Under the pieces are notes generated by a model, which saw only the letters and a program-made list of their open reading frames with translations, was not told where the DNA came from and made no database searches. 54,802 nt of DNA from Clostridioides difficile (lineage in GTDB: Bacteria; Bacillota; Clostridia; Peptostreptococcales; Peptostreptococcaceae), in assembly GCF_900243075.1 (NCBI RefSeq), contig NZ_OEZH01000031.1, forward strand, positions 1 to 54,802. Direction: 5' to 3'. The position numbers and the translations under genes were made by a program. This document shows, one piece after another, positions 30,220 through 51,823 of the stretch (position 1 is the stretch's first letter; the number at the start of each line of letters is the position of its first letter).

Positions 30220-30957
30220 GTGCGACACGTTGGTAATTGAAAAGATTGCCCACTAAGTTACAAAAACTTAGGAGAACTAATACTCTGAGCAATTAAATGA
30301 TAAGGTAACGCTTTGAAGAATTGCCATTAAGATTACGATATGCAATGGATTAAGTTATTATGAAGTTGTGTAAAGCTCGTTGAAGTCGGCAGAAAAATTA
30401 CCCTAACGAGTTAAGTCGAGGAAAGGTTTAATTAGCTGTAATTGATATGTCGGATGTCTATGAAGTATATCTATGGTGAGTATCCAAAATGTGTAATGGG
30501 GACGAACTACTGACTGACTTATCGTGAATGTCGCTTAGTAGAAATGCTAAGAGAACCAAATTTGGTTTATCATCAGAAGGATGAGTAAAGGCTGTGTTAA
30601 GAAAATCCTACAATTCTTACAGGGAATTGGATTGATGACGGTATTTAGGTAGCACCTAAGGATATACGGTAAAGATAGGAGTATTGGAACGTGGAAAGCC
30701 TTGAACATGGAGATATAACTGTCAAAGAAGTGTTTTAAGGGAAATGATAGATTAATTATCTATAACCTTAATTAATCAAGGTGAGAGTAGAGCCACAGTA
30801 CCAAAGAAGTCATGATAATAAGTGATGGAGGGATAGGCTCAAGTCGTTTGAGTAGATTAAATATTATGTTTAAAAATTTGCGATAGTTCAGGTTCTTGTA
30901 AGACTAATAGAAACGAAAATCTCAAAGAAGTTTACTTCTTGGAAAGGAGATGATTAG

Positions 30958-32796: not shown

Positions 32797-32820
32797 TATA
32801 TCTACAATTCAAACGAGGGA

Positions 32821-32854
32821 ACGCCGTGTGAGGTGAAAGTCTCACGCACGGTGT
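32821..32854 (+). ncRNA. Group II intron domain V (catalytic core)
   Basis: Exactly 34 bases fold as domain V. The lower stem is ACGCCGTG with CACGGTGT, there is a two-base CG bulge on the 3' side, and the upper stem TGAG/CTCA is capped by GTGAAAGT. The catalytic triad is CGC at 32822-32824, a known variant of AGC. Domain VI follows; A32896, eight bases from the intron end, is the candidate branch-point adenosine because it is unpaired between CGTC and CCT. Confidence 0.88.
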
Positions 32855-32903
32855 GGGACGGGGGAAAATCTGGAGATAACTTCAAAGGATTACCTATCGT
32901 CAT

Positions 32904-40809: not shown

Positions 40810-40834
40810 AAAAACAAAAAGAGTATATCTTTTT
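40810..40834 (-). terminator. Putative terminator of the c-di-GMP riboswitch expression platform
   Basis: On the minus strand AAAAAGA and TCTTTTT form an A/U-only stem directly after the aptamer, followed by GTTTTT. It is weak by itself but correctly placed for riboswitch-controlled termination before the 58-aa ORF. Confidence 0.45.
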
Positions 40835-40920
40835 GGCAACTGGCTGACATAACTCATAGTTTATTTTATAAGCGTTAGTCCCTATAGCTTTGCGTCACTA
40901 AATTTCTCTAGTTTTGCCGA
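40834..40920 (-). promoter_or_regulatory. Cyclic di-GMP-I (GEMM) riboswitch
   Basis: Read on the minus strand, the segment has the hallmark core GACGCAAAGC followed by TATAGGGACTAA, a preceding GGCAAAAC with a GAGAAAT-capped hairpin, and the 3' closing GCCAGTTGCC. These are the conserved ligand-site and P1 strands of the class I c-di-GMP aptamer. C. difficile is known to use many of these. The aptamer is followed by a terminator-like stem and a small ORF. A diguanylate cyclase gene lies 7 kb away in the same accessory region. Confidence 0.88.
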
Positions 40921-41164
40921 TTTAGTTTTATTCTACAATTACAATAATACAATAGAATTAGTTATTATTCAATATACTTGTTTGAAAATTAAATAAATTT
41001 ATGAATATGAACGTTATTTTATATCAAAAAAATAGACTAGATATGTAAAATATATGGAAAAACTTGATTGTATGTTTTGTATTAAAAAGCTTCTATTATT
41101 ATTAATTTGAGCTAGACAAATTGAGGAAGATATATACGATGGAATAAGAAATAATAAGTGGCTA

Positions 41165-41245: not shown

Positions 41246-41283
41246 ATATGAGTATGTTAAATTATACTTGAACATACTCATAT
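41246..41283 (+). promoter_or_regulatory. Inverted repeat overlapping the leader A promoter
   Basis: ATATGAGTATGTT and AACATACTCATAT are perfect 13-bp inverted copies with a 12-base spacer. The right arm contains part of the -35 box and spacer of the promoter at 41268-41296, so it is well placed as an operator. The second leader copy lacks this palindrome. Confidence 0.55.
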
Positions 41284-41296
41284 TTTATGGTAAAAT
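41268..41296 (+). promoter_or_regulatory. Promoter of leader A (RNHCP-rsgA)
   Basis: TTGAAC (41268-41273) and TAAAAT (41291-41296) are exactly 17 bases apart. The homologous copy at 48753-48781 has TTGAAC and TATGAT at the same spacing. Confidence 0.75.
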
Positions 41297-41326
41297 TTCA
41301 ATAATAATTATTAGTAAAGGAGTGTC

Positions 41327-41413
41327 TTGCCTGATGTCAGAGTTATATATAATGGTAACCAACAAATAAATAGTTGGAGACGCATACGTGTTCTGTTTAA
41401 TCAGAATTTTTAA
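41327..41413 (+). CDS. Candidate leader peptide ORF in leader A
   Basis: A 28-codon frame from TTG 41327, four bases after AAAGGAG, contains YNGNQQINSWRR, which matches YNGNQQLNSWRH of the other copy. The ATG at 41334, equivalent to the start in copy B, instead gives an 11-aa peptide because copy A has two extra bases (AT). The peptide is thus conserved only if TTG is used. Conservation may equally reflect the RNA hairpin CCAAC/GTTGG that the same bases form. Confidence 0.4.
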   Translation: MPDVRVIYNGNQQINSWRRIRVLFNQNF

Positions 41414-41516
41414 GTGTATTTTTGATACATTTAATTGTTGTGTCTTACTCTGCCTTTATAGATAACTAACATTCGACAACAAATAATAATATTACATATT
41501 ACTTTGTTAAATTGTG

Positions 41517-41549
41517 GTGTAGTGGGTTTTAATTTGCTACACTTTTATT
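41517..41549 (+). terminator. First hairpin/terminator of leader A
   Basis: GTGTAG and CTACAC pair, extended by G-T pairs, and TTTTATTA follows. Copy B has the same hairpin at 48996-49026 with a stronger stem. Confidence 0.55.
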
Positions 41550-41609
41550 AATTTTACATAGTATTATTTTGAATATAATTATGTTGAAATAGAAAATATT
41601 GAATTTTCT

Positions 41610-41693
41610 AGTCCACAGGAGTTTTCTGTTTTTGTGTAGGTAAATATGTATACCACATAAAAAGGCAGATATAAATACCTGTGGACTTTTTTT
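41610..41693 (+). terminator. Main terminator of leader A
   Basis: AGTCCACAGG (41610-41619) and CCTGTGGACT (41678-41687) are perfect 10-bp inverted copies followed by a run of seven T. An inner stem (CTG and TTTTTGTG against CACATAAAAA and CAG) extends it. It ends only 31 bases before the RNHCP start codon, so without antitermination the operon is off. Confidence 0.85.
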
Positions 41694-41724
41694 GTAGAAA
41701 ATACAAGATATGGAGGCAATAAAA

Positions 41725-42126
41725 ATGAATTATAAAAATAGAAAACGAGCTTATTATCAGGAAAATTCCTGTCTGGATAACTTTATTTGCAAAAATTGTG
41801 GTTGCCTTGTAGTTCCTGAAGGATCTGGAACACAACATAGAAATCATTGTCCACATTGTTTACATAGTATTCATGTGGATATCATTCCTGGTGACCGTGC
41901 TGCAGATTGTGATGCTAATATGGAACCTATTGGAGTGTGGGTGAGAAAAAATGGTGAGTGGGCAATTATTCATCGCTGTACACGCTGTGGACATCTTAGT
42001 TCTAATCGTATTGCAGCTGATGATAATTCAGTGAAATTAATGTCAATTGCATTAAAACCACTGGCACAGCCTCCTTTCCCACTAGAAAGAATCATTGAAA
42101 AGTTGGAAAAGGAGGAAACAGAATGA
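41725..42126 (+). CDS. RNHCP domain zinc-ribbon protein
   Basis: A 133-aa protein with paired Cys/His metal ligands: CKNCG (about residue 22), HRNHCPHCLHS (about 41) and HRCTRCGHLSS (about 87). This is the pattern of the RNHCP family, named after its R-N-H-C-P motif. Function is not established; it is often encoded beside RsgA. ATG 41725 follows ATGGAGGC at 41710; the ATG within that site is not the start. It overlaps the next gene by four bases (ATGA). It uses CGT and CGC for Arg, unlike the backbone genes, which suggests transfer. Confidence 0.85.
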   Translation: MNYKNRKRAYYQENSCLDNFICKNCGCLVVPEGSGTQHRNHCPHCLHSIHVDIIPGDRAADCDANMEPIGVWVRKNGEWAIIHRCTRCGHLSSNRIAADDNSVKLMSIALKPLAQPPFPLERIIEKLEKEETE

Positions 42127-43190
42127 ATGGTATGAAAAAGATTGATTTACAGGAATATGGTCTAAATAGGAATTTTATTGCTCAGAGTATGGAATATCAT
42201 GATTTGTACCTTGCTAGGATTATCTCACAGGAAAAGAACATTTATCAAGCTGTATGTGCAAATGGTGTACTGTTTGCAGAGGTTTCCGGAAAACTACGTT
42301 TTGAGGCTACTATACCATCTGATTTTCCAACCGTTGGTGATTTCGTTATGTTGGATCGTTGCAATGATAAAAATGGTAATGCTATTATTCATCATGTGCT
42401 TCATAGAAAAAGCTTGTTTGTACGTAAGGCTGCTGGAAAGACAAATGAGGAACAGGTGGTTGCAGCTAACATTGACATTGTTTTTTTGTGCATGTCACTG
42501 AATAAGGACTTTAACATTCATAGATTGGAGAGGTATCTGTCTTTAACATGGGAAAGTGGAGCTATCCCAGTAGTAGTACTTACTAAATCGGACTTATGTG
42601 ACAATGTGCATCGTAAATTACAAGTAGTTAATTCTATAGCCTTGGGTGTAGAAGTAGTTGTTGCATCATCTATAGAGCCAGATGGTTGTCAACAGATTTC
42701 TAAGTATATCAAACCAGGTTGTACTGTTGCCTTACTTGGTTCTTCAGGAGTTGGAAAATCTTCATTAATTAATTGTCTGCTGGATGGAGAATTTTTAAAT
42801 ACAAAGGAAATTCGCATAGATGATGATAAAGGAAGACATGCCACGACTAGACGAGAGTTATTTTTAATTTCAGGAGGTGGTATTGTTATTGACACACCAG
42901 GTATGAGAGAATTGGGAATGTGGGATGTTTCGGAAGGTTTAGATAAAAGTTTTGTAGATATAGAAGCTTATTTCGGAAAATGTCATTTTCGTAATTGTAC
43001 TCACACCTCAGAACCAGGATGTGCTATTTGGGAAGCTATTGCTCGTCAAGAACTTTCGCCTAAAAGATGGGAATCCTATCGTAGGCTTAAAACTGAAGCA
43101 GTATTTGCAGATAATAAAAGAGACTACTTAGCAAAAAAAGAAAAGAAATTTAAAAATATCTCAAAAATAAATAAGACAATTAGAAGATAA
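42123..43190 (+). CDS. rsgA: RsgA-like circularly permuted ribosome GTPase (accessory copy)
   Basis: A 355-aa YjeQ/RsgA-type GTPase. An N-terminal OB fold (about residues 30-95) precedes a permuted G domain in which G4 (VVLTKSDL) comes before G1 (GSSGVGKSS, about residue 204) and G3 (DTPGMRELG). A C-terminal zinc finger (CHFRNCTHTSEPGC) follows. Family members release late 30S assembly factors. It is longer than the usual housekeeping RsgA (about 290-300 aa), its codons differ from the backbone, and it is paired with RNHCP behind an attenuator. It is probably an inducible second copy; a housekeeping gene elsewhere in the genome is assumed, not seen. Confidence 0.85.
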   Translation: MNGMKKIDLQEYGLNRNFIAQSMEYHDLYLARIISQEKNIYQAVCANGVLFAEVSGKLRFEATIPSDFPTVGDFVMLDRCNDKNGNAIIHHVLHRKSLFVRKAAGKTNEEQVVAANIDIVFLCMSLNKDFNIHRLERYLSLTWESGAIPVVVLTKSDLCDNVHRKLQVVNSIALGVEVVVASSIEPDGCQQISKYIKPGCTVALLGSSGVGKSSLINCLLDGEFLNTKEIRIDDDKGRHATTRRELFLISGGGIVIDTPGMRELGMWDVSEGLDKSFVDIEAYFGKCHFRNCTHTSEPGCAIWEAIARQELSPKRWESYRRLKTEAVFADNKRDYLAKKEKKFKNISKINKTIRR

Positions 43191-43245
43191 GTGTAGTTTT
43201 TTTGTTCTGTTCATTCTATGAGTCTATATACTATTAATATATTAA

Positions 43246-43295
43246 ATTTGCCATTAATTTGTTACTTTAATGTGATTTTAATGGCAAATTTGGTT
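43246..43295 (+). repeat. Hairpin direct repeat, copy 2 (att-like)
   Basis: This is the second copy of the repeat at 39820-39869, 56 bases after the rsgA-like stop. Its hairpin is AAATTTGCCATT against AATGGCAAATTT, a perfect 12-bp stem. There is no T-run of useful length after it, so it is not an obvious terminator. The following 43296-43645 is AT-rich and holds no gene that I can support. Confidence 0.6.
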
Positions 43296-43645
43296 TGTGG
43301 TATTATTTAAGGCAATTTATTAATTTTTTTAATAAAGTTTGATTTTTTATATGATGATGTATACATGTGATAATGTATACATATTTGTTATGATAGACTC
43401 TTTTATAAAGAGTTATTATGTAAGATAAGAAGAGGTATATTTATACTAATACATAATAGAGTATATGTTTATGTATGATAGAGATGTTTCTTAAAAGCAA
43501 AACTGTAATATTGCTAATTTATAAAGTAAAAATATATGAATTATAAAATATAAATAAAATATTTATAAAAATTATTGTTTTAATTTATAATAAAAATTTT
43601 TTATTGAAAATAATGCTCAAACTTACAAAATTATTAACCAATTAT

Positions 43646-43674
43646 TTGTAAATGTATACTTTTGATGATAGAAT
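43646..43674 (+). promoter_or_regulatory. Promoter of the coiled-coil protein gene
   Basis: TTGTAA and TAGAAT are 17 bases apart, 60 bases before the start codon at 43734. Confidence 0.5.
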
Positions 43675-43733
43675 ATAATTAAGTTAAGTTAGCTTTTTAT
43701 AAAACATAAATTTGTTTTAGAGAGGTGAAATCA

Positions 43734-44417
43734 ATGAAAATATCTAGTCAATATAGAAGTCAGTATTCATTTAGACATGAAAGTAATATAAATAATACAA
43801 GAATTAATGAAAATATGGTTAAGAAAAATGAAACTGTAGGAAAAGACACTTATTTATCTAATATTATGAAACAAAAGCAAGAACTTAATGATAGAATTCG
43901 AGATTTAAAAGATAGACAAGAGGTTTATACTAAAAAAATAAATGAAGCAATTAAGAACTTATATAAATCAGAAATAAGAGAAGCAACTAATAACTTTTCT
44001 AATATAGAAATAGGTATTAAAAATAACAGTATAGAAGATGAAAATAAAAGTACAATGTTAGATGAAAATTCAACTTATCTAAATACAAATGATGAAAAAG
44101 AATCTTTAATCACTAAAGAGTTTAATGAAAAAATTGAAGAAGAAATATTAAATGATGAAAAATTAGAAGAGCTAGAACAAAAAAAGTATGATAAAGAGGA
44201 TTTCAATAAAGAAGAGAAAGTATCTGAAGACTTATATTTGTTAGGTAAAACTCGTGAAGAGCTTGAAAATATGCTTAAAAATTTTATAAATTTGACGCAA
44301 GAAGAAATAATGAAACTTGAGTCGAGAATAGAAAAGTTAGATAAAGATGCTGAAGAATACAAACAAAACTCAAAGACTAATATATTTGATAAAACAGATG
44401 AACAAAAAAACGTATAA
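43734..44417 (+). CDS. Charged coiled-coil protein of unknown function
   Basis: A 227-aa protein, rich in Lys, Glu and Asn, without signal peptide or membrane segment. Two predicted coiled coils are visible by heptad pattern: about residues 40-80 (MKQKQELNDRIRDLKDRQEV) and about 175-215 (LENMLKNFINLTQEEIMKLE). A very acidic linker (about 100-170) separates them. ATG 43734 follows AGAGGTGAAA; the GTG at 43725 belongs to the ribosome site. I do not recognise a family. It has its own promoter and stands alone. Confidence 0.65.
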   Translation: MKISSQYRSQYSFRHESNINNTRINENMVKKNETVGKDTYLSNIMKQKQELNDRIRDLKDRQEVYTKKINEAIKNLYKSEIREATNNFSNIEIGIKNNSIEDENKSTMLDENSTYLNTNDEKESLITKEFNEKIEEEILNDEKLEELEQKKYDKEDFNKEEKVSEDLYLLGKTREELENMLKNFINLTQEEIMKLESRIEKLDKDAEEYKQNSKTNIFDKTDEQKNV

Positions 44418-44608
44418 ATACATTAGTTTAAATATTATGTTTTAAGAGAATAAATTTATGATTAATGAAAATGTAAAGATACAATTTAAATACATTCCTG
44501 CTAAATCAACAATTTGTGAATCAGACTTAATTTCAATTATACTAATAGCCATATATTTATAAGTTAATAACTTTATGTTTTAAAAAGAATTAAATAAGGG
44601 GGAGTAAT

Positions 44609-45499
44609 ATGAAGAAGAATATATTAACTACTGTGATTACCATGATTATTGTATTGATGATGAGTATGACAGTAATGGCAGATCAATATCAAAAGGATGA
44701 AACATCTAGCTTGAAAAAACAGAGTGCAAATGAAAATAATCAAACTAGTGTAGGTACAATAGATGGCAGAGTGCAAACAAATGCAATAAGTAAAGGTGCT
44801 AATTATGACCCTAAGCATCCTCTTAAAGGAATGTTAACACAACTTGGTCTTAATACAACAGGTAAAGAGGGGTGGGATTTAAACTATGGAGGAAATCCAA
44901 ATGGAGTTGAGCTTCGAGCAGATGGTAAATATTATTATATAAATAAGGGTATGGAAGGGCTAGGATTTTACGCGGCAGCATTAGCAGGTGGCTCATATCA
45001 GAGAATAGGCTTTGGAAAACTTGACCCTATAGAAGTAATAGCCGATGGAAATTGGATTTCTTACAAACAAGCTCAAGATACACTTACAGTAATCAGGAAT
45101 TTTTTAAACAGTTTTGACTGGAGAAATGCATCTGAGATGGAAAGAGCTAATAGAGCTGCAAAATTGGTAACCGAAGCAAAATATGCAGGCTCTAAATATT
45201 GTCACCAAGTCTATGGTAATCTGGTTGATAAACGTGGTACATGTGTAAGTTTTGCAAGTAGCTTTCATTTATTAACAAGGTTAATGGGAATGAATTCACT
45301 ATATATAATAAATCCGTCATTAGATCATGCTTGGAACTATATACAAATTGATGGGAAATGGTATAGATTTGATGGGTCTGAAATATCAGCTTTTGGTGGA
45401 ACATTAGACTTTGATAACTTAAAATTAAAGGATGCAACAAGAGAGATGACTACTTACTATGATGCTAAGGCATTGTCTATATTAGGATTTAATCAATAA
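44609..45499 (+). CDS. Secreted transglutaminase-like (papain-fold) protein
   Basis: A 296-aa exported protein. The N-terminus is a Sec signal peptide (KK, a hydrophobic stretch to about residue 22, cleavage likely after MADQ region). The C-terminal half has a transglutaminase-core arrangement: Cys in KRGTCVSFASSFHLLTRLMG (about residue 213), His in DHAWNYIQIDGKWY (about 245) and Asp in RFDGS. The middle region (about 60-160) is not recognised. It probably acts outside the cell on peptides or cell-wall material; hydrolase versus cross-linking activity cannot be told. The ribosome site is AAGGGGGAG. Two terminators follow. Confidence 0.72.
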   Translation: MKKNILTTVITMIIVLMMSMTVMADQYQKDETSSLKKQSANENNQTSVGTIDGRVQTNAISKGANYDPKHPLKGMLTQLGLNTTGKEGWDLNYGGNPNGVELRADGKYYYINKGMEGLGFYAAALAGGSYQRIGFGKLDPIEVIADGNWISYKQAQDTLTVIRNFLNSFDWRNASEMERANRAAKLVTEAKYAGSKYCHQVYGNLVDKRGTCVSFASSFHLLTRLMGMNSLYIINPSLDHAWNYIQIDGKWYRFDGSEISAFGGTLDFDNLKLKDATREMTTYYDAKALSILGFNQ

Positions 45500-45507
45500 A
45501 AACAGGA

Positions 45508-45532
45508 AAGGCTTCTTATGGAGCCTTTTTTT
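45508..45532 (+). terminator. Rho-independent terminator, first of a duplicated pair
   Basis: AAAGGCTTC/GGAGCCTTT forms the stem around TTAT and is followed by T. The same unit (AATCAATAAAA, spacer, hairpin) is repeated 80 bases later. Confidence 0.85.
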
Positions 45533-45585
45533 ATTGATTTGAAATTCAATAAGGAATTCTATATTAAAATTTAATCAATAAAAGC

Positions 45586-45612
45586 AAAAAAGGCTCTTTA
45601 TAAAGCCTTTTA
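45586..45612 (+). terminator. Rho-independent terminator, second of a duplicated pair
   Basis: AAAAAGGCT and AGCCTTTT form the stem. The preceding AATCAATAAAAGCAAAA mirrors the sequence before the first terminator, so the two arose by local duplication. The T-run is interrupted and efficiency may be lower. Confidence 0.65.
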
Positions 45613-45704
45613 AGTGTTTTTTCCAAGTAAAATTTTTTATATCAGCATCAGTTTTAATTAAAAAATATAGTATTTTGGAGTTACTTTTAAAAATAAAATT
45701 ATTA

Positions 45705-45782
45705 AACTATAATAGTCATCATGTTGATAATGTTTAGAGCTTGTGATATTCTATAATAGTCAACATGGTGGCTATTATAGTT
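45705..45782 (+). promoter_or_regulatory. 23-bp inverted repeat before the peptide-immunity ABC operon
   Basis: The arm at 45705-45727 and that at 45760-45782 are inverted copies with two differences, both compatible with G-U pairs. The motif CTATAATAGTCA is also repeated in direct orientation at 45707 and 45751. It lies 120 bases before the ABC genes, so it is a candidate operator or leader RNA. No other gene is present in 45613-45904. Confidence 0.55.
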
Positions 45783-45904
45783 ATATTAAAAATAGTTGAT
45801 TTATATAGCTATGTGTAAAAATATATTACCATTTGTTTCAAGTTTGGTAGCTAAAGATAGAGTAAAAAGAAGTATTTATTAATTAAATCATTAGGAGATA
45901 TTAT

Positions 45905-46636
45905 ATGAATAATACAATTATTAATGTTCAAAACTTAACTAAAACTTTTAAAGAGAAAGAAGTTATTTATAGATGTAATATGTCAGTTCCACAAGGAGTA
46001 ATTTATGGATTTTTAGGAGCAAATGGTGCAGGAAAAACAACTGTTTTTAAGCTTATAGTAGGGCTACTAAATCCAACTTATGGCCAAATAAATATTCTTG
46101 GTCTGGATAGTGAGAAAAATCATAACGAAATATTGAAGCAACTTGGGTGTATGATTGAATCTCCAGTTTTCTATGACCATCTCTCTGCTACAGAAAATTT
46201 AGAAATACACCTTGAATATATGGGTGTTATTGATGCTAATATTGAAAAAACATTAAATGATGTAGGGCTTGCTGGAACAGGTAAACAACCTGTATCTCAA
46301 TTTTCCCTTGGTATGAGACAACGATTAGGAATAGCTAGAGCCATTGTTCATAAACCTCGTGTTCTAATACTTGATGAGCCAATAAATGGGTTAGACCCAA
46401 TGGGAATACGTGAAATGAGAGAACTTTTTATAAGACTTGTTCAAGAGGAACATATGACTATTCTAATATCTAGTCATATTCTTGGTGAAATTGAACATAT
46501 TGCAGATATTATAGGTGTGATTGTAAATGGTAGTATTGTAGAAGAAATTGCTTTATCATCTATTAAGGAAAAATTTCCAAATGGCCTTGAAGATTATTTT
46601 TTTAATATTATGAATGGAGGAAATGTATATGAATAA
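45905..46636 (+). CDS. ABC transporter ATPase, bacitracin/lantibiotic-immunity type
   Basis: A 243-aa ATPase with Walker A GANGAGKTT (about residues 37-45), the signature FSLGMRQRLGIARA (about 137), Walker B VLILDEPINGLDP and the switch His in SSHILGEIEHIAD. The sequence style (FLGANGAGKTT, MIESPVFYDHLSATENL) is that of BcrA/SpaF-like exporters that protect against antimicrobial peptides. ATTAGGAGA precedes the ATG. The permease gene overlaps its end. No sensor kinase/regulator is adjacent, so the inducer is unknown. Confidence 0.86.
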   Translation: MNNTIINVQNLTKTFKEKEVIYRCNMSVPQGVIYGFLGANGAGKTTVFKLIVGLLNPTYGQINILGLDSEKNHNEILKQLGCMIESPVFYDHLSATENLEIHLEYMGVIDANIEKTLNDVGLAGTGKQPVSQFSLGMRQRLGIARAIVHKPRVLILDEPINGLDPMGIREMRELFIRLVQEEHMTILISSHILGEIEHIADIIGVIVNGSIVEEIALSSIKEKFPNGLEDYFFNIMNGGNVYE

Positions 46637-47324
46637 TTTGATGAAATTGGAATTAAGGCGTACTAATGTTAAAGTTTATATAACTACTGCTGGAATCATT
46701 ACTATGTGTAGCTTTTGTATGTTATATATGTTTGCATATATGTCTAGAATAGGTTCAGATGGGGAATTTTTTGATTACATAGGGATATTATCTATTATTA
46801 GCTCTATAAATATGGCATGTTTTTGTGTACTTGGTTCTGTTATGCACTCACGATTCATTATCGATGAATATCTTGGAAAACGAGCTGTGTTATTATTTTC
46901 TTATCCAATTGAAAGAAAAAAGATGTTTTATTCTAAATTTTTGTTGGTAACTTTATTTACTGTTGGAGGAATGATTTTGAGTAACTTAATTATGTTTGTT
47001 ATATTTTTCTTAAGTGAATCAATTTTTCCAATTGTCAATGATAATCTTTCAATTAGTATAATAAATAAGTCTATTTTTATAACCTTGCTTATGGCTATTA
47101 TAGCTGGAGGATTTTCAGCGATATCAGTGTTAATTGGGTTTAGACGTAAATCTGTACCAACAACAATTGTGGTAGCAGTAATACTTTGTGCTTTAGTTAC
47201 TAATATTTTATCTCTTTCGCCTTTCACAATTATACCAACAATGATTACTACAGTATTTTCAATAATAGTTTCATTTATTAGCACTAAATCATTAGCTAAC
47301 AGAATAAAATATTTAGAAGCATAG
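46629..47324 (+). CDS. ABC-2 type permease of a peptide-immunity transporter
   Basis: A 231-aa membrane protein with about six hydrophobic segments, the first at residues 15-40. It resembles the permeases that accompany BcrA-type ATPases. ATG 46629 is 8 bases from GGAGG (46616-46620); in-frame ATG codons at 46614 and 46623 lie before or too near that site. It overlaps the ATPase gene by 8 bases. Only one permease is present, whereas most lantibiotic-immunity systems have two, so it may act as a homodimer. Confidence 0.8.
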   Translation: MNNLMKLELRRTNVKVYITTAGIITMCSFCMLYMFAYMSRIGSDGEFFDYIGILSIISSINMACFCVLGSVMHSRFIIDEYLGKRAVLLFSYPIERKKMFYSKFLLVTLFTVGGMILSNLIMFVIFFLSESIFPIVNDNLSISIINKSIFITLLMAIIAGGFSAISVLIGFRRKSVPTTIVVAVILCALVTNILSLSPFTIIPTMITTVFSIIVSFISTKSLANRIKYLEA

Positions 47325-47467
47325 ATAAAACGAGATATTAATTATAATGAAGTTAAATTAAAAATCTATTCATTACATTTTTTTATTAGTATATATCATG
47401 GGATATTTTGTGAATGGTGTTTATTTTGAAAGTGAGGAGTTAAGACAATGATAGCTTTTGTATAAGT

Positions 47468-47506
47468 ATCCAAAATGGGATAGAATAAAAATATACCATT
47501 TTGGAT
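47468..47506. terminator. Symmetric hairpin between convergent genes
   Basis: ATCCAAAATGG and CCATTTTGGAT are perfect 11-bp inverted copies with a 17-base loop. It lies between the permease and the convergent GGDEF gene and probably serves as a bidirectional terminator, although neither side has a strong T-run. Confidence 0.5.
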
Positions 47507-47536
47507 GTTATCTTATATATTTGAGTATATTTAGAG

Positions 47537-48493
47537 CTAAAACCAACTAAAGTTTCCTTTATTATTTCGTTTTGAATAATACAAAGCATAATCCGATTGT
47601 TTGTATAAAGATTGGAAAGTATCAGAGTTATTTTCTAATTTAGATATACCTATAGAACAAGAATTACTCTCTAAGCATAATTCTAAAACTTTCTTTGCTT
47701 TATTTTCAACATCCTCTTTTGATTGATTACTATATTCAAAAACAGCAAATTCATCTCCACCAAGTCTTCCAATAATAGCATCATCAACGAAGACTTTAGT
47801 CAAAATATTTGAGAAATGTATTATTACCTCATCACCTCGAACATGACCAAAAATATCATTTACCTGCTTAAAATTATCTAAATCAAAGATGTAAAAGTAT
47901 CCATGTGAAACAGTTTCAAGCATTTCTTTTATGTGTACTTCAAAAAAATGTCTATTATATAGTCCAGTCATAAGGTCTTTTTCTGATTTTAGTTTAAATT
48001 CATGTGCCATTGCTAGTGCTTCTTGTGCTTTTTCAGATATTGTTTTAGGGTAATACTCATCTTTCATTTGGTCAAAGTTTGGAATAGAATGGTGAACATG
48101 AATAAGTCTAATTGTATCATCTGTAACTCTGTATACCATAGTAAAGCGAGTATCCATTTCTACATATATATCTTTTTCTAAGTAATCTTTTTCTATTACC
48201 CAAAGAGTCCCATACACTATAAAAGTTTCATCTGTGACTTTGGTACATGAATACCACTCATCTATAATCTTAAAGTCTATTTGCTCTGATTCTGTTTGGT
48301 CTTTTTCAAGACCTATGATAAATTCTTCTAATGTTTCGTAAAATTCATGTTTTCCTGTTCCAATTAATGTAAGGTTGTCATCTAACAAGGAAATAATAAA
48401 TTTAAGGTTTTCTTCTTCTGGATTTAAAATATAAATATGCCAAATTTTTTTTGATAAATCCCTTAATCGTTTTTGTATTGTATTATTTTCCAT
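47537..48493 (-). CDS. Diguanylate cyclase with N-terminal NTF2/SnoaL-like domain
   Basis: This enzyme makes c-di-GMP from GTP. The C-terminal GGDEF domain (about residues 155-318) has the start MTGLYNRHFFE, the metal site FDLDNFKQVNDIFGH and an intact active site GRLGGDEFAVFEY. No RxxD inhibitory site is visible five residues before GGDEF, so product inhibition may be absent. The N-terminal 130 residues look like an NTF2/SnoaL-like sensory fold and there is no membrane segment, so it is cytoplasmic. AAGGGGGTAA on the minus strand precedes the ATG. Its product is the ligand of the riboswitch at 40834-40920. Confidence 0.85.
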   Translation of the reverse strand: MENNTIQKRLRDLSKKIWHIYILNPEEENLKFIISLLDDNLTLIGTGKHEFYETLEEFIIGLEKDQTESEQIDFKIIDEWYSCTKVTDETFIVYGTLWVIEKDYLEKDIYVEMDTRFTMVYRVTDDTIRLIHVHHSIPNFDQMKDEYYPKTISEKAQEALAMAHEFKLKSEKDLMTGLYNRHFFEVHIKEMLETVSHGYFYIFDLDNFKQVNDIFGHVRGDEVIIHFSNILTKVFVDDAIIGRLGGDEFAVFEYSNQSKEDVENKAKKVLELCLESNSCSIGISKLENNSDTFQSLYKQSDYALYYSKRNNKGNFSWF

Positions 48494-48752
48494 AGATTAC
48501 CCCCTTAAGATTTACAGTTTATATTTTAATGTATTATAAGTTGAACTCTTATTACAATATTATTATAATATAGAACTAAAGAAATTACATCCTGTATAGG
48601 TAAAAGTATATCTTTTATAATAAAAATATTACAGTAAAATAACCAGTTTTAATATACATATTATATTTTTAATTTATAAACGAATATTATAAATGAAATT
48701 TAAATTCAACCCTGAAGAAATAAGCTAAATGTATTAGTATATAAATCTATCC

Positions 48753-48781
48753 TTGAACATAAATAACCTTTATGATATGAT
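48753..48781 (+). promoter_or_regulatory. Promoter of leader B (ABC exporter)
   Basis: TTGAAC (48753-48758) and TATGAT (48776-48781) are 17 bases apart. They match the position and spacing of the leader A promoter. Confidence 0.75.
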
Positions 48782-48813
48782 GTCAATAATAATATTATGA
48801 GAGGAGTGCCTTG

Positions 48814-48876
48814 ATGTCGGAGTTATATAATGGTAACCAACAATTAAATAGTTGGAGACACATATATTCTGTATAA
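48814..48876 (+). CDS. Candidate 20-aa leader peptide in leader B
   Basis: The ORF starts with ATG seven bases after GAGGAG, an ideal ribosome site, and encodes MSELYNGNQQLNSWRHIYSV. Its stop lies within the structured part of the leader, before the TGTGTCT strand. A ribosome stalled or released here would change which hairpins form. The same peptide core occurs in copy A in another start frame. Confidence 0.5.
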   Translation: MSELYNGNQQLNSWRHIYSV

Positions 48877-48995
48877 TCAGAAATTTTAAGTGTATTTTTA
48901 ATACATTTAATTTGTGTGTCTTATTCTGCCTTTATAGATAACTGACATATGACAACAAATAGTATTTAAAATATATATTACTTTGTTAAATTATG

Positions 48996-49026
48996 GTGTA
49001 GTAGGCTTTAATCTGCTACACTTTTA
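48996..49026 (+). terminator. First hairpin/terminator of leader B
   Basis: GTGTAGTAG pairs with CTGCTACAC (one G-U pair) around an 8-base loop and TTTTATT follows. It corresponds to 41517-41549 in copy A. Confidence 0.6.
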
Positions 49027-49085
49027 TTAATTTTGTATAGTATTATTTTTATAACTATGTTGAAATAGAGAGCATTAACTTTTCT

Positions 49086-49164
49086 AGTCCACAGGAGTTT
49101 TCTGTTTTTGTGCTGTTAAATATAAGCACAAAAAAAGGCAGATATATACCTGTGGACTTTTTTT
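49086..49164 (+). terminator. Main terminator of leader B
   Basis: AGTCCACAGG (49086-49095) and CCTGTGGACT (49149-49158) form a perfect 10-bp stem, extended by an inner stem containing TTTTTGTGCT/AGCACAAAAA, and followed by seven T. The inner stem differs from copy A but still pairs. Confidence 0.85.
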
Positions 49165-49195
49165 ATATAAATTATGAAATATGGAGGTAGTTAAA

Positions 49196-50191
49196 ATGAG
49201 CATAATTGAACTTAATGAACTGACTAAATCTTATAGAAGATTTGAGAAAAAGGCAGGATTTATGGGGAGTGTAAAGTCTTTATTTAATAGGAAATATACA
49301 GAAAAAACAGCTATATCATCATTTGATTTAAAGATAGAAGAAGGAGAGTTTGTTGGATTAATAGGTCAAAATGGAGCTGGCAAAACTACTCTTATTAAGA
49401 TGTTAACTGGTATTATTGCACCGTCTTCTGGAGAAATATCTGTTATGGGTTATTACCCTAATAAATTAGAAAATAATTTTAAAAAACAATATGCTGTTGT
49501 TATGGGTCAAAAAAGTCAACTATTCTTTGAATTGACACCAGCAGATACGTTTCTTTTATTTAAAGAATTATATGATATATCTAATGAAGAATATAAAAAA
49601 AACTTGGATTACTTTATCGAATTATTTGAGGTATCTGACTATTTAAATGTTCAAGTTAGGACGCTTTCTTTAGGAGAAAGAATGAAAATGGAACTAATAG
49701 TAGCCCTTCTACATAATCCCAAAATATTATTTTTGGATGAACCAACTATAGGCTTAGATGCTATAGCCCAAAAACAAATTAGGTATTTCCTAAAAGAAGT
49801 AAATGAAACAAAAGGAACTACTATTATGCTTACTTCTCATTACATGGAAGATATTAAGAGTCTCTGTAGTAGAAGTATTGTTGTAGAAAATAGCCGTAAA
49901 ATATATGATGGTTCTACAGAGAAACTATTTAATCATTTTCAAAAATATAAAAAAATAACAGTTAGTTTTTCCAATGAAACTAACATTGTATTTCCAAAAG
50001 ATTGTAAAGTTGTTGAACAAACAAATCATAAGACATCAGTAATTGTGCCAAAAGAAAGAGGAAATGAAACGATTAAATGGATTTTTGATAAATATGATGT
50101 TAAAGATGTAATGATTGAAGAAGAAGATATAGGTAGTATTGTAGAGAGAATATATAAGAAAGGAAGTGATGAGTATTATGAGCAACTATAA
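49196..50191 (+). CDS. ABC-2 exporter ATPase (attenuator-controlled)
   Basis: A 331-aa ATPase of the type paired with ABC-2 permeases of the DUF990/ABC2_membrane_6 class. It has Walker A GQNGAGKTT (about residues 57-65), signature LSLGERMKMELIVALL (about 154), Walker B ILFLDEPTIGLD and switch His in TSHYMED. An extended C-terminal domain (about residues 240-331) is normal for this class. ATG 49196 is preferred because ATGGAGG at 49181 is its ribosome site. The gene starts 32 bases after the leader B terminator. Substrates of this class are poorly known; the leader suggests a drug or translation inhibitor. Confidence 0.87.
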   Translation: MSIIELNELTKSYRRFEKKAGFMGSVKSLFNRKYTEKTAISSFDLKIEEGEFVGLIGQNGAGKTTLIKMLTGIIAPSSGEISVMGYYPNKLENNFKKQYAVVMGQKSQLFFELTPADTFLLFKELYDISNEEYKKNLDYFIELFEVSDYLNVQVRTLSLGERMKMELIVALLHNPKILFLDEPTIGLDAIAQKQIRYFLKEVNETKGTTIMLTSHYMEDIKSLCSRSIVVENSRKIYDGSTEKLFNHFQKYKKITVSFSNETNIVFPKDCKVVEQTNHKTSVIVPKERGNETIKWIFDKYDVKDVMIEEEDIGSIVERIYKKGSDEYYEQL

Positions 50192-51032
50192 TGAAGCAAG
50201 TTCAAGTCCTTCAATGTTTTATAAATTTAAACAAAGTATTAGAAGATATTATGAAGTAGCCAAAATTAACTTCAAAGTGCAACTTATCTGGAGATTTGAT
50301 GTGGTGGTTAATGTGATGTTTACGATTGTAAAAATTTTGTTTGCTTATATTTTATGGAAAGCAATTTTTGGCGAAAATAAAATAGTCTCTGGTTTTACAT
50401 TTAACTCTATGTTGTCTTACTATATAATAAGCTCATTTTTAGCAGGTATTGATATGTCAAAGAGTACCAGTGAAGAGATATGTAATCGTGTAAAATTGGG
50501 CACATTTTCAAAGTACATGATTATTCCAATTAATGTTCAAAATTATTTTATTGCTAAAAATTTTGGAATGACATGTTTTTACTTTGTATTTAATATGATT
50601 TCTGCATTTGTATGGATTTTTATATTTAAAATAGATTTTGCCTTTACATCAAATCCAGTTCAAATATTAATTTCAATTTTGATGATTTTTCTAGGGCTTA
50701 TTTTTATGATGCAACTCCATTTCTTTATTGGGATTTTGTCATTTAAATTTCTTGAGATTAGTTTTTTTAGAATGATAATTGAAAATATTGTTGAATTCAT
50801 TACAGGAACAATGATACCACTTGTTCTTTTACCAGAAACTATAGTAACAGTTATGAAGGTATTTCCATTTTATTATACAACATATTTGCCATCTATGTTA
50901 TTAATAGGTAGAAACAGCAATGAGGCAATACAAGGATTAATTATTCTAGCATTATGGGTTTTATTCTTTTCTGTAATAAATAAAGTTATGTATAAAAGAA
51001 TGAGAACATTATTTGATGGGGTGGGGATATGA
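50178..51032 (+). CDS. ABC-2 exporter permease 1
   Basis: A 284-aa membrane protein with about six hydrophobic segments after a 40-residue cytoplasmic N-terminus. The segment ENIVEFITGTMIPLVLLP (about residues 204-221) is characteristic of the ABC2_membrane_6 family. ATG 50178 is the most likely start, 11 bases from AGGAAG; ATG 50169 is too near. It overlaps the ATPase gene by 14 bases and the second permease by four, so the three form one translationally coupled operon. Confidence 0.82.
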   Translation: MSNYNEASSSPSMFYKFKQSIRRYYEVAKINFKVQLIWRFDVVVNVMFTIVKILFAYILWKAIFGENKIVSGFTFNSMLSYYIISSFLAGIDMSKSTSEEICNRVKLGTFSKYMIIPINVQNYFIAKNFGMTCFYFVFNMISAFVWIFIFKIDFAFTSNPVQILISILMIFLGLIFMMQLHFFIGILSFKFLEISFFRMIIENIVEFITGTMIPLVLLPETIVTVMKVFPFYYTTYLPSMLLIGRNSNEAIQGLIILALWVLFFSVINKVMYKRMRTLFDGVGI

Positions 51033-51823
51033 TGAAAAAAAATTTGAAAATAATATTTATGTTATTAAAAATGAAATTATCAAAGATGATGGTATTTAGA
51101 TTTGATTTTTTTGGAGCATTTTTTGTAGATAGTTCATTATTTATATTACAACTGCTAATGTTTAATAGTATATATTCTTATGTAGACTCAATAGGGGGAT
51201 GGCAACAAGGAGAGATGTTAATATTTATAGGAACTTTCTCATTAATAAATGCGATAAATATGACGATTTTCTTTTTTGGTATTTATGATATTCCAAGAAA
51301 AATCCAAGAAGGAGAATTAGACTACTATATTACAAAACCATTAGACCCACTATTTAGGTTAACATTTGAAAATATTAATATTGGTTCATCACCATTAATT
51401 CTAGCAAGTATACTTATTGTTTTATATGGAATATCTGAGTTAAACTCAGAGATAACTTTAGTTATGATAATAATATATATTTTCATGGTGTTATTGATGA
51501 CATTACTTTTTTATGATGTATGTATCATACTTAGAACAGTTTCATTTTTTGTTATATCATCTTCTGCGATAATGAGATTAGAAGATAATTTATTGCCAAT
51601 GAACATGAAAATTCCTGGTGTAATATATGAAGGTGTTTTTAAAGTATTATTCTATTTAATCTTACCATATGGAATTATGTCGACAATTCCGACTCAAATT
51701 TTGGCTGGGACAATAACAATTAATGGATTAATATACTCAATTTTAATTGTATTTTTGTTTACATTGTTTATGTGGAGATTTTGGAAGTTAGGCATGAGAT
51801 ATTATAAAAGTGCAAGTAGTTAA
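51029..51823 (+). CDS. ABC-2 exporter permease 2
   Basis: A 264-aa membrane protein with about six hydrophobic segments, starting within the ATGA overlap with permease 1. It contains the family's IQEGELDYYITKPLDPLFRL segment (about residues 91-110) and complements permease 1 to form a heterodimer. It ends the operon; 51824-52050 holds no further gene or clear terminator. Confidence 0.82.
   Translation: MMKKNLKIIFMLLKMKLSKMMVFRFDFFGAFFVDSSLFILQLLMFNSIYSYVDSIGGWQQGEMLIFIGTFSLINAINMTIFFFGIYDIPRKIQEGELDYYITKPLDPLFRLTFENINIGSSPLILASILIVLYGISELNSEITLVMIIIYIFMVLLMTLLFYDVCIILRTVSFFVISSSAIMRLEDNLLPMNMKIPGVIYEGVFKVLFYLILPYGIMSTIPTQILAGTITINGLIYSILIVFLFTLFMWRFWKLGMRYYKSASS

Follow-up and report, generated by a model that had tools for sequence, protein, structure and literature searches.

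The 54,802-nucleotide contig NZ_OEZH01000031.1 of Clostridioides difficile (assembly GCF_900243075.1), hereafter called the window, contains two homologous leaders, copy A (41268–41724) and copy B (48753–49195), located in front of two unrelated operons. By domain matches, copy A precedes the genes of an RNHCP-domain protein and an RsgA paralogue (RsgA2), while copy B precedes an ABC-2 exporter. It is likely that the two leaders are duplicates of a single ribosome-mediated transcription attenuator, in which the position of a ribosome on a short leader open reading frame (ORF) would decide between termination and readthrough, following the logic of the vmlR leader of Bacillus subtilis.

Anatomy and conservation of the two leaders

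A DNA search of the window's own genome with positions 41260–41730 as the query returned the query itself and the stretch 48748–49199, with an identity of 83% (E 1.6e-133). The third-best match had an E-value of only 0.006, so the leader is present in two copies. The alignment of copies A and B runs from the -35 box to the start codon, and this agrees with the homology and the coordinates proposed in the initial annotation, as do the unrelated genes behind the copies. The promoter boxes, leader ORF and early hairpin with a T-run that it listed as shared were present in both copies. The strong terminator, placed there 31–32 bases before the start codon, was confirmed, its T-run ending 31 bases upstream in both cases.

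In total, 14 leader copies, 13 of them intact, were found across eight Clostridioides genomes. Promoter-like matches were not more frequent in the leaders than in shuffled sequences, and the support for the promoter is its conservation, with TTGAA invariant and the -10 region largely kept among the 13 intact copies. A leader ORF with a Shine–Dalgarno sequence (SD) and an ATG was found in 13/13 intact copies, GGAG being located 7 or 11 nt upstream of the ATG; the translation of this ORF is itself predicted. Eight intact copies encode the peptide MSE[LF][YF]IMV[TN]N[KN], and the five copies with a 2-base deletion encode MSELYNGNQQLNSWR.. (20 codons). The frames diverge after codon 5 via this 2-base indel, and the peptides are alike at their start alone. 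The part common to all leader ORFs, their start plus the first five codons, coincides with the region where halting a ribosome changes the fold in the modelling described below.

The predicted energy of the main terminator was -31.9 kcal/mol in copy A and -30.7 kcal/mol in copy B (z -7.5 and -7.3, respectively), and 0/200 shuffles were as good. The early T-tailed hairpin was found once per leader stretch against an expectation of 0.1. The fold of the 5' module of copy B had a z-score of -4.1, with none of 200 shuffles as good. In the folded leader, UAUAAUGGUA, located within the leader ORF, pairs with UGCCUUUAUA and three hairpins are enclosed (the anti-antiterminator). Alternatively, UCUGCCUUU pairs with AAAGGCAGA in the interior of the terminator (the antiterminator); this is the conserved alternative pairing that had been claimed initially. 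All of these pairing words are invariant across the 13 intact copies. The antiterminator duplex (-13.9) was matched by 4/500 shuffles for copy A and 3/500 for copy B, and the energy of the anti-antiterminator duplex by 2/500 and 23/500, respectively.

Footprint folding was used to model the ribosome, which was represented by unpaired bases on an RNA ending 7 bases past AAAGGCAGA. The probability of the antiterminator was 0.00 in 13/13 copies when no ribosome was placed and 0.50–0.95 in 13/13 copies with a ribosome at codon 5. With the ribosome at codon 8, it ranged from 0.11 to 0.87 across copies. When the footprint was moved along the RNA in four of the 13 copies, the antiterminator formed mainly when the start of the ORF was covered. 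Thus, each leader contains an ORF with an SD, a terminator between the ORF and the gene, and mutually exclusive anti-antiterminator, antiterminator and terminator pairings, between which switching is predicted in silico.

Two further elements were observed next to copy A. A perfect inverted repeat, ATATGAGTATGTT..AACATACTCATAT, with 13-base arms (window positions 41246–41283) spans the -35 box of copy A; it is imperfect in the genome G007 and was not seen in copy B. It could be an operator. A c-di-GMP-I riboswitch aptamer (Rfam, 72.4 bits) occupies positions 40832–40928 of the minus strand; it lies a short way upstream of copy A and points away from it.

Predicted switch, competing explanations and known attenuators

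According to the proposed mechanism, RNA polymerase would start about 410–420 nt upstream of the gene, judging from the -10 box, and transcribe the leader ORF. By default, ribosomes would clear the ORF fast or never load, and the RNA of the 5' part of the ORF would pair with UGCCUUUAUA about 100 nt downstream. With the anti-antiterminator formed, the terminator would fold and transcription would end 31 nt short of the start codon. Under inhibitors of early elongation or other translation stress, a ribosome would linger on the first codons and block the anti-antiterminator; the freed UCUGCCUUU could then capture AAAGGCAGA once it is transcribed, and the polymerase would read into the gene. In this manner, one signal would govern two gene sets, one for a putative drug exporter and the other for a protein pair (RNHCP–RsgA) that is putatively directed at ribosomes. 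The common signal suggested in the initial annotation is supported insofar as it would act via translation, to which the anatomy, the footprint folding and, independently, the unrelated upstream ORF (uORF) leaders that RNHCP genes elsewhere often have all point; its identity as an antibiotic or translation stress, like the functions of the proteins, is what we infer.

A number of results weigh against such a switch. By word length, the 9-nt antiterminator complement does not stand out (324 and 390 of 2000 shuffles did as well), and the fold of the 5' module of copy A is modest (z -2.3; 5/200 shuffles as good). The leader peptide shows no conservation past codon 5. With the ribosome at codon 8, the antiterminator probability was just 0.17 in copy A of G000, the window's genome, and 0.11 in copy A of G007; with the ribosome at the stop codon, it varied from 0 to 0.85 and was about none in 7/13 copies. 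A few far-downstream positions of the sliding footprint also freed the antiterminator in 3/4 scanned copies. In the full-length fold, the terminator won with or without a ribosome (Tbasal 0.98–1.0 and antiterminator 0.0 in four copies), and the choice between the two folds therefore has to be a kinetic one, as it is in other attenuators. Finally, compensatory changes were absent from the 5' module, where 0/38 pairs had changed on both sides and shuffles were no worse; the copies are very alike. The anti-antiterminator pairs included in this count never vary and are uninformative either way; in the terminator, one pair had changed on both sides.

The length and strong conservation of the 5' RNA, its multi-branched fold and the loss of peptide sequence past codon 5 could also be explained by an undescribed class of metabolite riboswitch, duplicated before both operons, with the ORF being incidental. 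We consider this improbable, since the SD and ATG are kept in 13/13 intact copies, one arm of the anti-antiterminator lies inside the ORF and masking that arm flips the fold, and an exporter and a ribosome GTPase have no evident metabolite in common. In addition, neither leader reached the gathering score of a family in Rfam 15, be it a riboswitch, the T-box or another. The initial annotation had recognised no named riboswitch, and the Rfam search, which could have supplied a name, returned no family. When each copy was scanned permissively against Rfam, the matches, some of them microRNA-like, all stayed far below the gathering scores.

It is very unlikely that the terminated leaders are chiefly trans-acting small RNAs (Hfq-associated), with control of the downstream gene being secondary: a full-length first gene still follows the leader in 12/13 intact copies. 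A non-coding RNA has been reported in C. difficile (PMC11651100), and the gap concerned would be the exporter leader if CD3365 is the GGDEF gene.

The ribosome-mediated attenuator can be compared with published systems. In vmlR of B. subtilis, an anti-antiterminator, antiterminator and terminator are arranged so that ribosome stalling on a uORF gives readthrough (PMC9226507). The Clostridioides leader resembles it in the uORF inside the anti-antiterminator, the antiterminator, the pause hairpin and the intrinsic terminator. However, the uORF of vmlR is the tripeptide MIN and its gene encodes an ABC-F factor, whereas the Clostridioides leader has an 11- or 20-codon ORF, an antiterminator whose pairing spans about 200 nt to the inside of the terminator, and two operons as targets. 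The exporter bmrCD of B. subtilis is controlled by attenuation at a translated leader and is induced by ribosome-targeting antibiotics (PMC4191407); the bmrB–bmrCD system shares with copy B an ABC exporter, a leader ORF, predicted to be translated in copy B, and a terminator. In contrast to the 53 codons of bmrB, with the terminator inside the coding region, the terminator here is located about 210–240 nt past the ORF (the ORFs end at 41369 and 48876, and the terminators begin at 41610 and 49086).

The cplR leader, from C. difficile itself, is likewise a uORF attenuator with premature termination, and cplR is induced by retapamulin and lincomycin (PMC10201436). It differs in its uORF, MR[I/M] (the Clostridioides leader ORFs read MSE[LF]...), its 212-nt leader and a terminator that sequesters the SD; the two are set apart by description, not by sequence. 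According to the same source, PLSA and nucleoside antibiotics arrest the ribosome just after initiation with little context dependence, and the conservation of the leader ORF would fit inhibitors of this kind. The toiL–topAI system of Escherichia coli also has a uORF, at which ribosomes are reported to stall at different sites in response to drugs of several classes; however, it operates by unmasking of a ribosome-binding site, with Rho-dependent termination, rather than by an intrinsic terminator (PMC12121999). Owing to its vmlR- and bmrCD-like logic, the leader can be filed with a known kind of attenuator; its sequence family is new and its predicted mode of action familiar.

Distribution and origin of the second copy

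No convincing relative of the leader was found outside Clostridioides in DNA, covariance-model and terminator-model searches. The covariance model of the 5' module, a search of the kind suggested in the initial annotation, matched 8/71 family genomes and 8/297 order genomes; they were the same eight, all Clostridioides. Because such large searches filter more strictly and score few candidates per genome, weak matches may escape them. Searching with the terminator model gave 14 copies in the eight Clostridioides genomes and, elsewhere, only E-values of 0.046–0.084 in 2/13 genomes searched. The DNA search at E 0.01 gave matches in 62/100 genomes, and the non-Clostridioides matches listed were short, with E-values of 4.6e-6 or weaker. 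Plasmid and phage records searched with the leader gave no match, and neither did viral contigs with one exact terminator pattern, the sole pattern searched there.

The exporter copy is present in 8/8 Clostridioides genomes and the second copy in 6/8. The second copy precedes intact RNHCP–RsgA genes in G000, G007, G002 and G003, and a decayed RsgA gene in G006. In G005, the second copy is itself decayed, with most of the 5' module lost and both antiterminator arms changed, and it precedes a broken RNHCP gene, a joint decay that speaks for the proposed switch. These remains of the second operon were located at L046:3245–3524 and following (G005) and L048:5690–6450 (G006), and part of the genus is losing this operon.

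Behind copy A of G002, G003 and G006, a sequence matches the initial codons of the ABC ATPase gene, and roughly 90–150 bases past the T-run the RNHCP gene (G002, G003) or the decayed RsgA gene (G006) begins. In G000 and G007, the ATPase remnant is gone and RNHCP is located directly behind the leader's own SD. These remnants show that the front of the exporter operon was duplicated in the locus and that RNHCP–RsgA was set behind the copy, where it replaced the ATPase gene; the leader probably belonged to the exporter operon first. Thus, the duplication proposed in the initial annotation stands, but the leader is not a free-standing cassette that was recruited twice.

The 14 copies were also placed in a tree. 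One cluster (support 1.0) holds five exporter leaders from as many genomes, all with the 2-base deletion in the leader ORF. The G004 exporter leader branches from the stem of this cluster (0.97), whereas those of G001 and G005 fall outside it, as do the second copies.

The ATPase remnant and the decay of the second operon in G005 and G006 could mean that copy A is a mere leftover of the operon duplication, kept as a promoter for RNHCP–RsgA with an attenuator that is no longer relevant, but this is hardly probable, as the attenuator parts are intact wherever both RNHCP and RsgA are intact.

Orthologues of the exporter permeases were not found outside Clostridioides at E 1e-20 among 198 order genomes. 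An internal TAG was observed in permease 2 of G003 and in the available piece of G006 (L097, L098). Elsewhere in the window, Rfam matches to group II introns were found on the plus strand at positions 30272–30464 and 32819–32903. The positions of all leader parts and genes are given in Table 1.

Table 1. Features of the two leaders and their operons in the window, and loci of the second leader type
Feature	Position	Strand	Basis or remark
Copy A promoter TTGAAC-17-TAAAAT, extended -10 TG	41268..41296	+	kept in aligned copies
Copy A SD (GGAG) of leader ORF	41319..41322	+	
Copy A leader ORF, MSELYIMVTNK + stop, 11 codons	41334..41369	+	
Copy A anti-antiterminator 5' arm UAUAAUGGUA, within leader ORF	41348..41357	+	folding, shuffles
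Copy A antiterminator 5' arm UCUGCCUUU	41449..41457	+	conservation, folding, shuffles
Copy A anti-antiterminator 3' arm UGCCUUUAUA	41451..41460	+	folding, shuffles
Copy A early hairpin, T-rich tail (pause- or terminator-like)	41516..41543	+	
Copy A main intrinsic terminator, T7 run	41610..41693	+	folding, shuffles
Copy A antiterminator 3' arm AAAGGCAGA, inside terminator	41661–41669	+	
RNHCP-domain protein, 133 aa	41725..42126	+	PF12647, 2.2e-39
RsgA paralogue (RsgA2), 355 aa	42123..43190	+	RsgA_GTPase PF03193, 1.8e-48
Copy B promoter TTGAAC-17-TATGAT, extended -10 TG	48753..48781	+	kept in aligned copies
Copy B SD (GGAG) of leader ORF	48803..48806	+	
Copy B leader ORF, MSELYNGNQQLNSWRHIYSV + stop, 20 codons	48814..48876	+	
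Copy B anti-antiterminator 5' arm, within leader ORF	48826..48835	+	folding, shuffles
Copy B antiterminator 5' arm UCUGCCUUU	48925..48933	+	conservation, folding, shuffles
Copy B anti-antiterminator 3' arm	48927..48936	+	folding, shuffles
Copy B early hairpin, T-rich tail	48995..49022	+	
Copy B main intrinsic terminator, T7 run	49086..49164	+	folding, shuffles
Copy B antiterminator 3' arm, inside terminator	49134–49142	+	
ABC transporter ATPase (ABC_tran)	49196..50191	+	best match DrrA-like, under that model's cut-off
ABC-2 permease 1	50166..51032	+	ABC2_membrane_6
ABC-2 permease 2	51029..51823	+	ABC2_membrane_6
Second-leader loci (48)	L120–L164, L166, L167, L169; e.g., L131:1501–1638, L155:1501–1635		covariance model

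RNHCP, the RsgA paralogue and an unrelated uORF leader

At E 0.001, RNHCP matches were found scattered over 20/198 order genomes (19 above the curated cut-off) and 17/398 phylum genomes (15 above it). An RsgA gene was located downstream of RNHCP at 10/19 loci, four of these ten being Clostridioides; some of the other nine loci were cut by the contig end or decayed. In 5/13 loci displayed (L103, L104, L105, L107 and L108; five genomes), RsgA and RNHCP are fused in one open frame, with the RsgA part first. The other RsgA of the window's genome is encoded on a different contig, is higher-scoring and is 29% identical to RsgA2.

RNHCP is rich in invariant cysteines. A sequence search of solved structures at E 0.1 returned no match for it, and its AlphaFold2 model was of low confidence (predicted local distance difference test, pLDDT, 57.5). 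With models of defence systems, RNHCP was unmatched and the other proteins gave only weak or generic ATPase/GTPase matches. Since RsgA is a GTPase of the 30S subunit, a natural guess would be that RNHCP–RsgA2 acts on small subunits halted by drugs or misassembled. Among the papers searched, none contained the term 'RNHCP domain' or named C. difficile together with RNHCP, and no description of the locus was recognised among those listed on attenuators, uORFs, a second RsgA or antibiotic transcriptomes. The excerpts of PMC3649979, PMC10687069 and PMC8653836 contain nothing on the locus, and that of PMC11477304 does not name it.

In other families, 11/16 selected RNHCP loci carry an upstream region with a short ORF with an SD, a hairpin GGGAGG..CCUCCC (varied in one locus) and the SD GGAGG, which the CCUCC of the hairpin can alternatively sequester. 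The remaining 5/16 loci have no such leader; the sample left out fusions and more divergent RNHCP genes. A covariance model of the 11 leaders matched 39/325 order genomes, 0/8 Clostridioides and 21/378 phylum genomes. The loci of 51 of the 60 matches were read, the nine weakest order matches being left out: the gene behind the leader belonged to one GNAT acetyltransferase family in 21 cases, was a stand-alone RsgA in 14 and RNHCP in 13, and the remaining 3/51 loci precede something else (E 3.8e-4 to 3.8e-3). Without the 11 training rows, 37/40 loci still precede RNHCP, RsgA2 or GNAT genes. The stand-alone RsgA proteins are 49–57% identical to the window's RsgA2 versus 28–34% to the housekeeping RsgA. 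Domain assignments were made for one GNAT and one RsgA2 protein of these loci.

The 48 leaders considered below are the 51 minus the three loci with other targets. A hairpin of at least 7 bp together with an SD helix of at least 5 bp was found in 46/48 of them, a count given here without a shuffle control. It was revealed that 7/10 hairpin pairs change on both sides somewhere, a level that 0/500 shuffles reached, in an alignment fitted to the model structure, which favours covariation. The motif [ED][IL]V is located just before the hairpin in 35/48 leader peptides, a count favoured by the script, which prefers such frames; among the uORF picks, L164 has no SD in view. The GAG and AUU codons of the EIV motif are nearly invariant (31 and 33 of 35), unlike the third position of the Val codon, and the RNA itself may be under selection besides the peptide. 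By anatomy, a ribosome at the end of this ORF would mask the GGGAGG arm, letting CCUCC cover the SD, and ribosomes failing to reach the ORF end may turn the switch on. No Rfam match was found at the leader in the 24 loci scanned. Judged by this comparison and by passages of one paper (PMC8632094), the leader qualifies as a candidate new RNA family, given how strongly it covaries and how consistent its targets are.

Taken together, these data raise a possibility that we put forward tentatively, at slightly less than even confidence: the RNHCP–RsgA paralogue pair would be an undescribed system of ribosome protection or recovery under translation stress, governed by two unrelated uORF leaders, namely the exporter-derived transcription attenuator in Clostridioides and a translation attenuator in many other genomes of the phylum, where the latter also precedes stand-alone RsgA2 and one GNAT family. 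As two unrelated uORF controls on one type of operon would be hard to explain otherwise, the pair is likely to be wanted when translation is disturbed, and the two-route control is a concrete hint that RNHCP–RsgA acts on ribosomes under translation stress. If this is true, one RNA element would hold together a small conserved stress regulon of RNHCP, RsgA2 and GNAT genes. The Clostridioides locus also illustrates one way in which a stress response can expand: a leader is duplicated together with the front of its operon, and the gene behind it is then exchanged.

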